Shown here piece by piece: positions 24,538-60,816 of a stretch of 64,000 nt of DNA (the stretch's first letter is position 1; each line of letters starts with the position of its first letter). The translations under genes and the position numbers were made by a program. The DNA is taken from NCBI GenBank assembly GCA_022774865.1, contig JALFLH010000013.1, positions 1 through 64,000 on the forward strand. The letters are read 5' to 3'. This stretch comes from Clostridiales bacterium. Its GTDB lineage: Bacteria > Bacillota > Clostridia > Oscillospirales > Oscillospiraceae. The notes under the pieces were generated by a model. That model did not search any database. It was not told where the DNA came from and saw only the letters and a list, made by a program, of their open reading frames with translations.

Positions 24538-24700
24538 GCTTACAGGAAATTGCAGATGCAGCCGAAGGAGTAACGCTCTCAGGTGTCCGGGTTCCGGATG
24601 GGGACTGTAAGCCGACAGAACTTTGGAGAAACCCATTGAGTTGGGTGCCGAAGGTGCAAAGCGTGAACGCGCTAATCTCTCAGGCAAAAGGACAAAGCTG
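24538..24700 (+). promoter_or_regulatory. tandem glycine riboswitch
   Basis: Aptamer 1: GCTTACAG/CTGTAAGC P1 with GCCGAAGGAGTAA...CTCTCAGG. Aptamer 2: GGAGA...GTGCCGAAGGTGCAAA...AATCTCTCAGGCAAAAGGACAAAG. Upstream of AGCS symporter. Confidence 0.93.
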
Positions 24701-24727
24701 ATTTTTCGGAAAAGATTTGTTTTTTGA

Positions 24728-24762
24728 GCGGATTGTGTGATTTCACGCAATCCGCATTTTTT
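24728..24762 (+). terminator. terminator of the glycine riboswitch expression platform
   Basis: GCGGATTG-tGTGatttCACg-CAATCCGC followed by ATTTTTT, between the riboswitch and the symporter start. Confidence 0.8.
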
Positions 24763-24787
24763 GAATCAAAACGGGGAGGAAATTCAA

Positions 24788-26305
24788 ATGTTTTTCGAAA
24801 AACTGGCTGAAATCAACGGGGTCATCAATGATTTTGTCTGGGTCAAAATCGGTCTGGTGCTGCTCATCGGCACCGGCATTCTCATGACCTGCTGCACGAA
24901 ATTCTTCCAGCTTTCCCATATCCGCCACTGGTGGAAGCAGACCATCGGTTCTCTGTTCACCAAGGACAGCGCCACCACCAAAAAAACCGATAAAAAGACC
25001 ATTTCCCAGTTTCAGGCGCTGTGCACCGCTCTGGCCGCCACCATCGGCACGGGCAACATCGCAGGTGTTTCCGCCGCCATCGTCATCGGCGGCCCCGGCG
25101 CGGTGTTCTGGATGTGGATTGCGGCCTTCTTCGGCATGATGACCAACTTCTCCGAAAATGTGCTGGGCATCTATTTCCGCCGCCGCAACCGGGACGGGGA
25201 ATGGTCCGGCGGCCCCATGTACTATCTGAAGGACGGCCTCGGCCGCTACAGGCACTGCGGTAAAATCGGCAGCGTTCTGGGCGCGCTGTTCGCCGTATTT
25301 GCGATTTTCGCCTCCTTCGGCATCGGCAATATGGGTCAGATCAATAAAATCACCCTGAATCTCCAGTCCGCTTTCTTCAAGAATGTGTCTCTGGGCACGG
25401 TGGGCGGCATCAACGTGGTGAATCTTCTCATCGGCGTGGCGCTGATGATCGTAGCCGGTCTGATTATCATCGGCGGCCTGCAGCGGATTGCGGCTTTTGC
25501 CGAGCGGATTGTCCCGTTTATGGCGGTCGTCTACTGCATTGGCTGTATCTTCCTTTTCTTTAAGCACATTGGCTCCGTGGGCGCGATCTTCGCCTCCATT
25601 TTCCGCTTTGCTTTCGGCATCAAGGCCGTGGCCGGCGGCGCGGCCGGCGTGATGATCAGTCAGGTGATTACCCAAGGCTGCAAGCGCGGTGTATTTTCCA
25701 ACGAGGCCGGACTTGGTTCCTCCGTGATGGTGCACTCCTCCTCCAATGTGAAGGAGCCGGTGATGCAGGGAATGTGGGGCATTTTTGAGGTGTTTTTCGA
25801 CACCTTCGTGGTGTGCACCATGACCGCCATTGTGGTGCTGTCCTCCGGCTTCATCAATCTGGAAACCGGACTGGCTGTGGAGGGTGTCAGCGATGCCACG
25901 CTGGTGTCGCAGGCATTTGGCAGTGCGTTCGGCCCGCTGGGTGAAATCTTTGTCGCCATCGCCATGCTTCTCTTCGCCTTTACCACGGTTCTGGGCTGGT
26001 CGCAGTACGGAACCAAGGCAGTTGAGTATCTCTTCGGTCACAAGGGTGTCCGGATCTACAAGGTTATCTTTGTGGTGATGATCATCTCCGGTGCGGTCAT
26101 GACTTCCTCTCTGGCGTGGGATATCTCCGACACCTTCAACGGCCTGATGATGATTCCCAACCTGATCGGCGTTATCGCCCTGTTCCCGCTTGTGACAAAA
26201 ATTACAAATAATTATGTCAACCGCAAGATTCGGGGCGGGGATGAGGAGCCGGTTCTTTCCTACGATCCCGCCATACAGGATGAACTCAAAGCCACGCTGG
26301 ATTGA
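24788..26305 (+). CDS. sodium:alanine/glycine symporter (AGCS family)
   Basis: ALCTALAATIGTGNIAGVSAAIVIGGPGAVFWMWIAAFFGMMTNFSENVLGIYFR...GPMYYL. Confidence 0.95.
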   Translation: MFFEKLAEINGVINDFVWVKIGLVLLIGTGILMTCCTKFFQLSHIRHWWKQTIGSLFTKDSATTKKTDKKTISQFQALCTALAATIGTGNIAGVSAAIVIGGPGAVFWMWIAAFFGMMTNFSENVLGIYFRRRNRDGEWSGGPMYYLKDGLGRYRHCGKIGSVLGALFAVFAIFASFGIGNMGQINKITLNLQSAFFKNVSLGTVGGINVVNLLIGVALMIVAGLIIIGGLQRIAAFAERIVPFMAVVYCIGCIFLFFKHIGSVGAIFASIFRFAFGIKAVAGGAAGVMISQVITQGCKRGVFSNEAGLGSSVMVHSSSNVKEPVMQGMWGIFEVFFDTFVVCTMTAIVVLSSGFINLETGLAVEGVSDATLVSQAFGSAFGPLGEIFVAIAMLLFAFTTVLGWSQYGTKAVEYLFGHKGVRIYKVIFVVMIISGAVMTSSLAWDISDTFNGLMMIPNLIGVIALFPLVTKITNNYVNRKIRGGDEEPVLSYDPAIQDELKATLD

Positions 26306-39600: not shown

Positions 39601-39612
39601 ACGCCTTGTTTT

Positions 39613-39646
39613 CTGGGAGCCGCGCGTCCGGCTCCCAGGTTTTTCT
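39613..39646 (+). terminator. intrinsic terminator of the xdh operon
   Basis: CTGGGAGCC-gcgcgtcc-GGCTCCCAG then GTTTTTCTT. Confidence 0.85.
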
Positions 39647-39674
39647 TGATTTACCCCACCGGATATGGTACAAT
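39646..39674 (+). promoter_or_regulatory. promoter of the riboswitch-guanine deaminase unit
   Basis: TTGATT (39646-39651), 17-nt spacer, TACAAT (39669-39674). Confidence 0.6.
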
Positions 39675-39690
39675 CCGAATACAGACAAAT

Positions 39691-39760
39691 ATGCTCATAT
39701 AAGTACGCTGTGAATGGTGCGTATGTTTCTACGGGCCGCCGAAAGGCTCGCTATGAGTAT
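39691..39760 (+). promoter_or_regulatory. purine (guanine-class) riboswitch aptamer
   Basis: P1 ATGCTCAT/ATGAGTAT; P2 GTACGC/GCGTAT; J2/3 GTTTCTAC; P3 GGGCC-GCCGAAA-GGCTC; J3/1 CTAT with C at the specificity position by alignment to the classic xpt aptamer; L2 GG and L3 CC can form the kissing pairs. Confidence 0.88.
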
Positions 39761-39802
39761 CTGAGCCCAGCCTTTCCGTGGGAGCAGATACTCTTTTTCT
39801 TT
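39755..39802 (+). terminator. terminator of the purine riboswitch expression platform, overlapping P1
   Basis: GAGTATCTG (39755-39763)/CAGATACTC (39785-39793) with inner CCCA/TGGG, then TTTTTCTTTT; 5' arm shares GAGTAT with P1. Confidence 0.85.
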
Positions 39803-39839
39803 TCCCGGAAGGACTCCATCTGAAAGAGGTGCTTATGTT

Positions 39840-41108
39840 ATGAAAACAACCATTCTCAAAGGAACCGTCGTCTCCGCTCCCGCGCTGGGTAAACTGGACA
39901 TCACCGAAAACGGCTATCTGGTGGCTGTGGACGGCATCATTCAGGGCGTGTATGAGACACTGCCGCCTCAATTTGCCGGTTGCGCCGTGGAGGACTGCGG
40001 CAGCGATCTGATTTTGCAGTCCTTCGCCGATATGCACCTGCACGCGCCCCAGTATCCCATGCTGGGCATGGGCATGGATCTGCCGCTGCTCAAATGGCTG
40101 GATACCTACACCTTCCCCACCGAGGCAAAATTTGCCGACACCGGCCTTGCCCGGCAGGTCTACCGCCAGTTGGCGGCGGAGCTTGCCAAAAACGGAACAA
40201 CCCGGGTGTGTATGTTCTCGTCGCTGCACCGGGAGGCGACCCTGATCCTCATGGAAGAGCTGGAAAGCGCCGGCATCACAGGCTACGTGGGCAAGGTCAA
40301 CATGGATCGCAATGGCGGCGTGAACCTGCAGGAAACCACCGAAGAATCCATCTGGGAAACCCGCCGATGGCTGGACGAATGCGGGGATTTTCCTCACATC
40401 AAGCCCATCATCACCCCCCGGTTCACCCCCTCGTGCACCGACGAGCTCATGAAAGCGCTGGGTGAAATTGCCGGAGCGCAGAACCTCCCCATTCAGTCCC
40501 ACCTGTCCGAGAACACCGGCGAGATTGCCTGGGTTTCCGAGCTGCACCCCGAATGCGCCCAATATTGGGAAACCTACGCGAAATACGGTCTGTGGAACAG
40601 CCGAACCCTGATGGCGCACTGCGTCTGGTCGGACGAGCGGGAGCGCCGCGCCATCCGCGACGCGGGTGTCTGGGTTGTCCACTGCGCCGACTCCAACCAG
40701 AATATCCTCTCCGGCGTGGCGCCCATCTGGGTCATGCTGAACGAGGGGGTTCGGGTCACGCTGGGCAGCGATATTGCGGGCGGCGACCATCTTTCCATGT
40801 TTGATGTGGCCGCCGCCTCCATCCGGGCATCCAAGGCGCGTTCCATTCTGGACAACTGGCAGACCGATTTTCTGACCGTGGCCGAGGGCTGGTATCTGGC
40901 CACCTCCGCCGGAGCGGAATTCTTCGGAGAGAAGCCGGGCTTCGCCCCCGGCAATCCCCTCCACGCCATCGTCCTGCGGGATGACGCGCTGCCCGCTGTC
41001 CGGAAACTGACCGCCCGGGAGCGGTTTGAGCGGTGTGTCTACCGCCGGCAGGAAGGGGCTCTCCGCGCCGTCTGGAGCGCCGGCCGGAAAATCTACGCCG
41101 CTGAATAA
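39840..41108 (+). CDS. guaD: guanine deaminase
   Basis: QSFADMHLHAPQYPMLGMGMDLPLLKWLDTYTFPTEAKF...HLSENTGEIAWV...LMAHCVWSDE...LGSDIAGGDHLSM. Confidence 0.93.
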   Translation: MKTTILKGTVVSAPALGKLDITENGYLVAVDGIIQGVYETLPPQFAGCAVEDCGSDLILQSFADMHLHAPQYPMLGMGMDLPLLKWLDTYTFPTEAKFADTGLARQVYRQLAAELAKNGTTRVCMFSSLHREATLILMEELESAGITGYVGKVNMDRNGGVNLQETTEESIWETRRWLDECGDFPHIKPIITPRFTPSCTDELMKALGEIAGAQNLPIQSHLSENTGEIAWVSELHPECAQYWETYAKYGLWNSRTLMAHCVWSDERERRAIRDAGVWVVHCADSNQNILSGVAPIWVMLNEGVRVTLGSDIAGGDHLSMFDVAAASIRASKARSILDNWQTDFLTVAEGWYLATSAGAEFFGEKPGFAPGNPLHAIVLRDDALPAVRKLTARERFERCVYRRQEGALRAVWSAGRKIYAAE

Positions 41109-59395: not shown

Positions 59396-60739
59396 TTAGT
59401 ATACCCGGTGGTTCAGCTCGCCCCAGAGCTTCCTGCTCTGCTCCAGAACCCAGGCGTTGATGGCGTCCTCATCGATGCTGACGAATTCCCGGTCTTTATA
59501 GAGCACCTTACCGTTGATGATGGTGGTGCGGCAATTCCTGCCCATCATACCGAAGAGCATATGGCCGTCGATATTTTCCGCGGACAGCGGGGTAAAGGGC
59601 TTGTAGTCCATGACGATCACGTCGGCGGCAGCGCCGGGCTTCAGCACGCCCAGGGGCTTGCGGCAGTATTTGGCCATCATTCTGGCGTTATTCTGGAAGA
59701 GCATGGTGGTGCCCTCGCACCAGCCCACGTTGGGCAGACCCGCGTTGTGGCGCTGGATGGTCAGAAAAACCTTCAGGCTTTCCAGCATATCGTGGGTGTA
59801 GGCGTCGGTGCCCATGCACACATGAATTCCCTTCGCCATCATCTTCAGCACGGGGGCGCAGCCCACAGCGTTGCCCATGTTGGATTCCGGATTGTTGACC
59901 ACCATGGTGCCGGTCTCTTTCACGATGTCCAGTTCCTTGTCGGTCAGGTGGATGCAGTGACCCAGCATGGTTTTCTCACCCAGAATGCCGCCGATGCGCT
60001 GCAGGCGCTCGATGGGCAGACAGTGGTGCTGATTGAGGGAATCATACACGTCGTTTAATCCCTCGGCCACGTGGATATGGAATCCGGTGAGGCCGTTGTT
60101 GGCCTCCACCATTTTTTCAAAGGTCTTGTCGGAGATGGTGAACAGGGCATGGCCGCCGAACATGGCGGTGATCATGTCGTCCTGCTGCTGCGCGGCCCAT
60201 CTGGAGAATTCCACATTCTCCTGAATGGCCTGTTCACATTTTTCCATGCCGTCCCGCTCGGACACCTCGTAGCACAGGTTCGCCCGGATACCCAGCTCCT
60301 GACACACATCCTTGATGGCAAACAGGGAACCGGGAATTTCGCGGAAGCTGGCGTGGTGATCCACGATGGTGGTCACACCGTCGCGGATACAGTCGAGAAT
60401 GGTGGCGTAGGCGCAGGCACGGGTGCCGTCCAGGGTCAGATGGCGGTCAATGTTCCACCAGGTTCCGTCCAGCACCTCCAGAAAATTGGTGGGATTGTTG
60501 CCCTCGATGGCAAGGCCACGGGCCAGTCCCGAATAGATGTGGGTGTGGGCGTTGATGAGACCGGGCATAATCAGCCCGCCTCTGGCGTCCACATATTCGG
60601 CGTTGGGGTATTTTGCCCGCAGCGCGGCCTGTGTACCGACCTCACGAATGGCTTCCCCATCAATTACGACCGCGCCATCCTCCAGATAGGGCATTGCCGG
60701 GTCCCGGGTGAAGAGTTTTCCGTTTCCTACCAGCAGCAT
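59396..60739 (-). CDS. ssnA: SsnA family aminohydrolase
   Basis: DARGGLIMPGLINAHTHIYSGLARGLAIEGNNPTNFLEVLDGTWWNIDRHLTLDGTRACAYATILDCIRDGVTTIVDHHAS. Confidence 0.94.
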   Translation of the reverse strand: MLLVGNGKLFTRDPAMPYLEDGAVVIDGEAIREVGTQAALRAKYPNAEYVDARGGLIMPGLINAHTHIYSGLARGLAIEGNNPTNFLEVLDGTWWNIDRHLTLDGTRACAYATILDCIRDGVTTIVDHHASFREIPGSLFAIKDVCQELGIRANLCYEVSERDGMEKCEQAIQENVEFSRWAAQQQDDMITAMFGGHALFTISDKTFEKMVEANNGLTGFHIHVAEGLNDVYDSLNQHHCLPIERLQRIGGILGEKTMLGHCIHLTDKELDIVKETGTMVVNNPESNMGNAVGCAPVLKMMAKGIHVCMGTDAYTHDMLESLKVFLTIQRHNAGLPNVGWCEGTTMLFQNNARMMAKYCRKPLGVLKPGAAADVIVMDYKPFTPLSAENIDGHMLFGMMGRNCRTTIINGKVLYKDREFVSIDEDAINAWVLEQSRKLWGELNHRVY

Positions 60740-60816
60740 AAGAATTGCCTCCTTTGGTTGAAAATAATATTCTCAGCCGGCCCGTGCGCGAAGCACTTCG
60801 TTGCAGCCCGCAGCTT

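Follow-up and report, generated by a model that had tools for sequence, protein, structure and literature searches.

A guanine-class aptamer upstream of a guanine deaminase gene, predicted to act as a transcriptional ON switch

Analysis of a 64,000-nucleotide stretch of Clostridiales DNA (hereafter the window) revealed a guanine-I aptamer at 39691-39760 on the + strand, which we predict with high confidence to be a transcriptional ON switch for the guanine deaminase gene, guaD, that follows it. Guanine riboswitches are the textbook OFF system. The aptamer itself is typical of its family, and what is new is the expression platform, the polarity and the target. The ligand, the direction of control and the kinetics described below are predictions from the sequence.

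The guaD locus and its aptamer

The regulated gene, guaD (39840-41108, + strand), encodes 422 amino acids and is by homology a guanine deaminase gene, the target named in the first-pass annotation. TIGR02967 was the best of 20 families for the protein, with a score of 300 bits that is below the 375-bit cut-off of that model, and a Pfam Amidohydro_1 match was also found. Comparison with guanine deaminases in the PDB gave E-values of 1e-65 and similar over most of their length, the best match being 2i9u (E 1e-93).

The neighbouring xdhABC genes encode XdhA, XdhB and XdhC, each of which exceeded its NCBIfam equivalog cut-off. An intrinsic terminator (39612-39644, + strand), with an 11-pair stem at 39612-39639 followed by TTTTT, closes the upstream xdhABC operon and separates it from the guaD unit, so that guaD should have its own transcript; with this terminator in between, a guaD transcript arising mainly by read-through of xdhABC was disfavoured. 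A putative sigma-70-type promoter, TTGATT and TACAAT spaced by 17 nucleotides with an extended -10 TG, is present at 39646-39674 (+ strand), ahead of the aptamer as had been annotated. It was the single match in the promoter search, for which 0.2 matches were expected by chance, and the position of its -10 element places the expected transcription start near 39681. A ribosome-binding site, AGAGGTG (39825-39831, + strand), was read from the sequence 8 bases 5′ of the ATG at 39840.

Some kilobases 3′ of guaD are genes for homologues of HyuA, a carbamate kinase, YgeW, YgeY, YgeX, YgfK and SsnA, and the same cluster includes a selenium-dependent xanthine dehydrogenase (XDH) homologue; YqeA was also named in the set. 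The gene set near guaD is that of the reductive uric-acid pathway as described in PMC12507026. Elsewhere in the window, a glycine riboswitch aptamer (RF00504, 61.1 bits) at 24613-24705 (+ strand) lies immediately 5′ of a sodium:alanine symporter gene (24737-26305). The ssnA RNA motif (RF03031, 42.1 bits) was located at 60779-60808 (- strand), within the leader of ssnA (59396-60739, - strand), which encodes the amidohydrolase of the uric-acid cluster; RF03031 is an orphan motif that here adjoins a purine-catabolic gene.

A covariance search, which the first-pass annotation had proposed as a check, matched RF00167 (Rfam Purine) to 39675-39773 of the window (+ strand) at 41.7 bits, where the curated gathering score is 37; the E-value was 0.0018 over 64 kb and 2e-5 over a 701-base stretch. 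A genome-wide search found this to be the sole RF00167 aptamer in the assembly. The predicted fold (-23.2 kcal/mol) is a three-stem junction in which P1, P2 and P3 all pair. Covariance alignment and reading of the sequence gave P1 nine pairs (39691-39699/39752-39760); the eight first annotated (39691-39698/39753-39760) fit apart from the end pairs and are only part of this helix. P2 (39703-39708/39719-39724) closes L2 (39709-39718), which is one base longer than usual and has 8 nt between the non-pairing U39709 and U39718, in line with the loop of about 8 nt noted before. The GG at 39716-39717 in L2 is complementary to the CC at 39739-39740 in L3, a predicted contact. J2/3 (39725-39732) is GTTTCTAC, 8 nt in length and without insertion. 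P3 (39733-39737/39745-39749) lacks one pair that the nearest relatives have, and C53 (39732) and G73 could add one pair to it; the 2-nt J3/1 (39750-39751) consists of G73 and C74. Ligand affinity may be lower because of the short P3 and the long L2.

The pocket bases U22 (39700), U47 (39726), U51 (39730) and C74 (39751) are those of the guanine-I class which, together with the RF00167 match, upholds the original assignment of the aptamer as purine/guanine class. The adenine class was ruled out by C74, where that class needs U74. Xanthine-II was ruled out as U51 is kept, J2/3 is 8 nt and J3/1 is 2 nt, with no U51G or insertions, and guanine-II as J2/3 has no one-base insertion. The aptamer shares with the Bacillus subtilis xpt-pbuX type (guanine-I, RF00167) the three-stem junction, the J2/3 sequence, the loop GG and CC, C74 and the other pocket bases, but differs in G73, the short P3 and the longer L2. 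The xpt-pbuX type is also an OFF switch whereas the platform here is predicted to be ON, and guanine-I targets are genes of synthesis, salvage or uptake whereas the target here is a catabolic deaminase.

Terminator overlap and direction of control

The guaD leader contains an intrinsic terminator at 39755-39803 (+ strand). Its stem (39755-39763/39785-39793) has nine perfect pairs (-20.4 kcal/mol), with an inner 4-bp hairpin at 39766-39769/39779-39782, and is followed by TTTTTCTTTT, the U-run occupying 39794-39803. Bases 39755-39760 are common to the terminator 5′ arm and the P1 3′ strand. That the terminator reuses six P1 bases had been recognised from the outset, and the six shared bases stand; the P1 3′ strand to which they belong, however, has nine bases and not eight. 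Because its 5′ arm reuses P1 3′ bases, the terminator and the aptamer are mutually exclusive, as was first suggested, and 59 related leaders retain this layout, with covariation. Such exclusion results in an ON design.

In folds of the growing transcript from 39681, the full P1 was present between lengths 39759 and 39775, and the terminator appeared from 39791 onwards. The full-length optimum (-40.2 kcal/mol) had nine terminator pairs, and enforcing P1 (-34.1 kcal/mol) cost about 6 kcal/mol. In the proposed mechanism, the three-way junction would fold first as RNA polymerase leaves the promoter. With no ligand, the terminator 3′ arm would displace the P1 5′ strand from the P1 3′ strand and transcription would end at the U-run. 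Guanine binding would instead hold P1 together, block the terminator and allow guaD to be transcribed. Guanine would induce its own converting enzyme, and the xanthine produced could be used by the neighbouring purine-catabolic genes.

OFF control, by which plentiful guanine would lower expression, is what most studied guanine riboswitches exert (PMC9295807, PMC11477304), including all four of C. difficile (PMC11477304), and guanine-I riboswitches were described as reducing expression, with ON control predicted only for variant pockets (PMC9295807). For the guaD leader this polarity is extremely unlikely, as the leader contains a single terminator, which involves P1 and would be blocked by a ligand-stabilised P1, and the other aptamers surveyed usually have a terminator farther downstream that does not overlap P1. 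OFF polarity was rejected since the sole leader terminator shares P1; this sharing and its conservation in relatives support the ON polarity that had been predicted.

The terminator 5′ arm is built from the P1 3′ strand, as expected of a pbuE-type ON switch. In the B. subtilis pbuE adenine switch, the terminator likewise incorporates aptamer sequence, and bound ligand protects the aptamer from strand exchange with it (ligand-gated strand exchange; PMC7707468). Unlike pbuE, where J3/1 and P3 are invaded, the guaD leader has C74 and a terminator that shares only P1; its outermost pair (39755-39793) is below the junction, three pairs from it, and strand exchange need not extend through J3/1 and P3. 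Guanine-II and xanthine-II (Paenibacillus and others; PMC9295807) share the scaffold and are likewise predicted to be ON switches, and xanthine-II is linked to purine-degradation genes (PMC9295807), but they have J2/3 insertions, and xanthine-II additionally U51G and a J3/1 insertion, none of which is present here. The 2′-dG-III riboswitch upstream of nucleoside hydrolase (PMC9295807) is similarly a predicted ON switch inducing a catabolic enzyme that acts on the ligand, but has other junction sequences and another ligand. The open literature searched yielded neither an ON switch with a canonical guanine pocket nor a report of guanine deaminase under a guanine riboswitch; this absence is weak evidence, since subscription papers and supplements were outside the search.

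Distribution and covariation of the leader

In a survey of the family, 201 genomes were searched, of which 56 carried a purine aptamer and 62 encoded a guaD homologue. When the two lists were combined by position and sequence, 21 aptamers were linked to guaD, counting that of G029, in which guaD starts ~1.7 kb downstream behind another reading frame. No aptamer was found ahead of the close guaD homologues of G071 and G194. A P1-anchored terminator scan with shuffles was adopted because automatic whole-leader folds gave spurious long overlaps in distant or OFF leaders. All 12 close guaD leaders scored between 16.0 and 44.5, and 11 of these exceeded the 99th percentile of the shuffles (16.5). 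Among purine aptamers with other targets, 1/40 exceeded it, upstream of a MATE-like transporter gene; these 40 targets, named by recognising protein starts, include BMP-family lipoproteins and xpt-like and permease-like genes.

The distant guaD leaders (~40-45% protein identity) have another arrangement, in which the P1 3′ strand is in an inner hairpin and the outer terminator arm is derived from P3/L3; in seven of nine leaders this arm begins 18-22 bases 5′ of the P1 3′ strand. Two leaders depart from this: G078b, which is the first of a tandem pair of aptamers, and G074, in whose leader no U-run was found. These distant leaders resemble pbuE more than the leader in the window does. Both terminator designs, P1 overlap and P3/L3 invasion, would imply ON control. 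The P3/L3 layout was also present in a genome from another family (L213), on the minus strand at 1035 and 2571, where the ON-type aptamers precede guaD and a second, nearby amidohydrolase gene.

Several other loci were recorded during these searches. At L014 (G174), a U74 adenine-type aptamer (1501-1598) is upstream of an adenine-deaminase-like gene and has a layout related to the P3/L3 one, its 27-pair terminator overlapping both P3 and P1. Elsewhere in this genome, C74 aptamers are found ahead of guaD and of a xanthine-dehydrogenase-like gene; sensor base 74 there agrees with the substrate of the enzyme. At L126 (Bacilli), the P1 3′ strand seems, judged by eye, to cover the ribosome-binding site. 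A purine aptamer with G73 and a terminator reaching into P3/L3 is upstream of a MATE-like transporter gene at L038 (G013), possibly providing guanine-induced efflux. Purine aptamers at L030, L046, L055 and L059 are upstream of FAD-dependent oxidoreductase-like genes with no obvious purine role.

A scan of a GTDB-based collection revealed 80 guaD loci, with an aptamer found in 45 by pattern search and four more added by eye. The P1/terminator overlap was present in 59 leaders, which include the 12 from the family survey and, with a single mismatch, L109; a few genomes are in both sets, and 44 of the 59 leaders were distinct over the positions used. Within these 44, the terminator stem was paired in 97.2% of cells, a percentage favoured by the 3′ arm having been located by its pairing next to the U-run, and six of the nine pairs were changed on both sides. 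Terminator covariation was 0.612, whereas shuffles gave 0.366 and slid partners no more than 0.237, although such counts are inflated by the relatedness of the sequences. P1 pairs were found in 88% of cells of the same alignment, the outermost pair often being lost.

Two deer-gut genomes, L092 and L102, encode a guaD 74% identical to the one studied here, and L092 also shares the xdhABC synteny. Their leaders retain a similar terminator with no recognisable aptamer; that of L092 was not recognised by Rfam as a purine aptamer, and a search for further relatives of it gave nothing useful. The 225 bases 5′ of guaD in these genomes may represent either a decayed or a diverged sensor. They bring up the possibility that the aptamer in the window has itself decayed ahead of a fixed attenuator, with termination working and sensing lost, which would also fit an RF00167 match just 4.7 bits above cut-off and the irregular P3 and L2. 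We regard such decay as very unlikely, given that the core is intact (J1/2, J2/3, C74 and the GG/CC loop bases), that P1, P2 and P3 all pair and that the loss of the P3 pair removed one base from each strand (G000 compared with G156).

Ligand, position 73 and biological meaning

Guanine is the likely ligand of the predicted ON switch, as U22, U47, U51 and C74 are all guanine-class. The J3/1 of the aptamer has G73 (39750), where most guanine riboswitches have A, a substitution already noticed in the first-pass annotation, which had left the choice between guanine, xanthine and another oxidised purine open. That caution now carries less weight: the pocket bases are guanine-class and the xanthine-II and guanine-II changes are absent. 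Nucleotide 73 was A in 4/21 guaD-linked aptamers compared with 37/40 of the others (Fisher p 1e-8, which overstates the case as related genomes are not independent). Among the 45 aptamers from named genomes it was G in 29, U in 8 and A in 8.

The same switch could respond to another physiological ligand (hypoxanthine, xanthine, 8-oxoguanine or a broad oxopurine pool); G73 would then be a change of specificity. The departure from A in 17/21 guaD-linked aptamers and 3/40 others is consistent with this, guanine-class pockets discriminate against hypoxanthine and xanthine only about 10-fold, and an 8-oxoguanine-sensing variant of the guanine-I class exists (PMC9295807). Nevertheless, there is no change at U22, U47, U51 or C74, and neither U51G nor the junction insertions that mark xanthine-II occur. 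Relatives that have the same gene vary at nucleotide 73 (G, U, C or A), a pattern that suggests relaxed constraint and not a new pocket. Another ligand is accordingly improbable in our judgement, and the simplest reading of the sequences is a relaxed constraint on base 73 with guanine still the ligand. More tentatively, it is conceivable that in Oscillospiraceae and some neighbours guanine-class aptamers gave rise to a group of ON switches through which guaD is induced by its substrate, with at least two terminator designs and with base 73 released, tuning affinity or widening the response to the oxopurine pool.

If true, a conserved set of switches with a canonical pocket, reversed polarity and a catabolic target would mean that switch logic follows the role of the gene and not the aptamer. 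These leaders would provide natural guanine ON parts for engineering, and the relatives a natural set for probing the role of base 73. For gut biology, the prediction is that, in bacteria with uric-acid-degradation genes, guanine would induce the entry step of purine breakdown.
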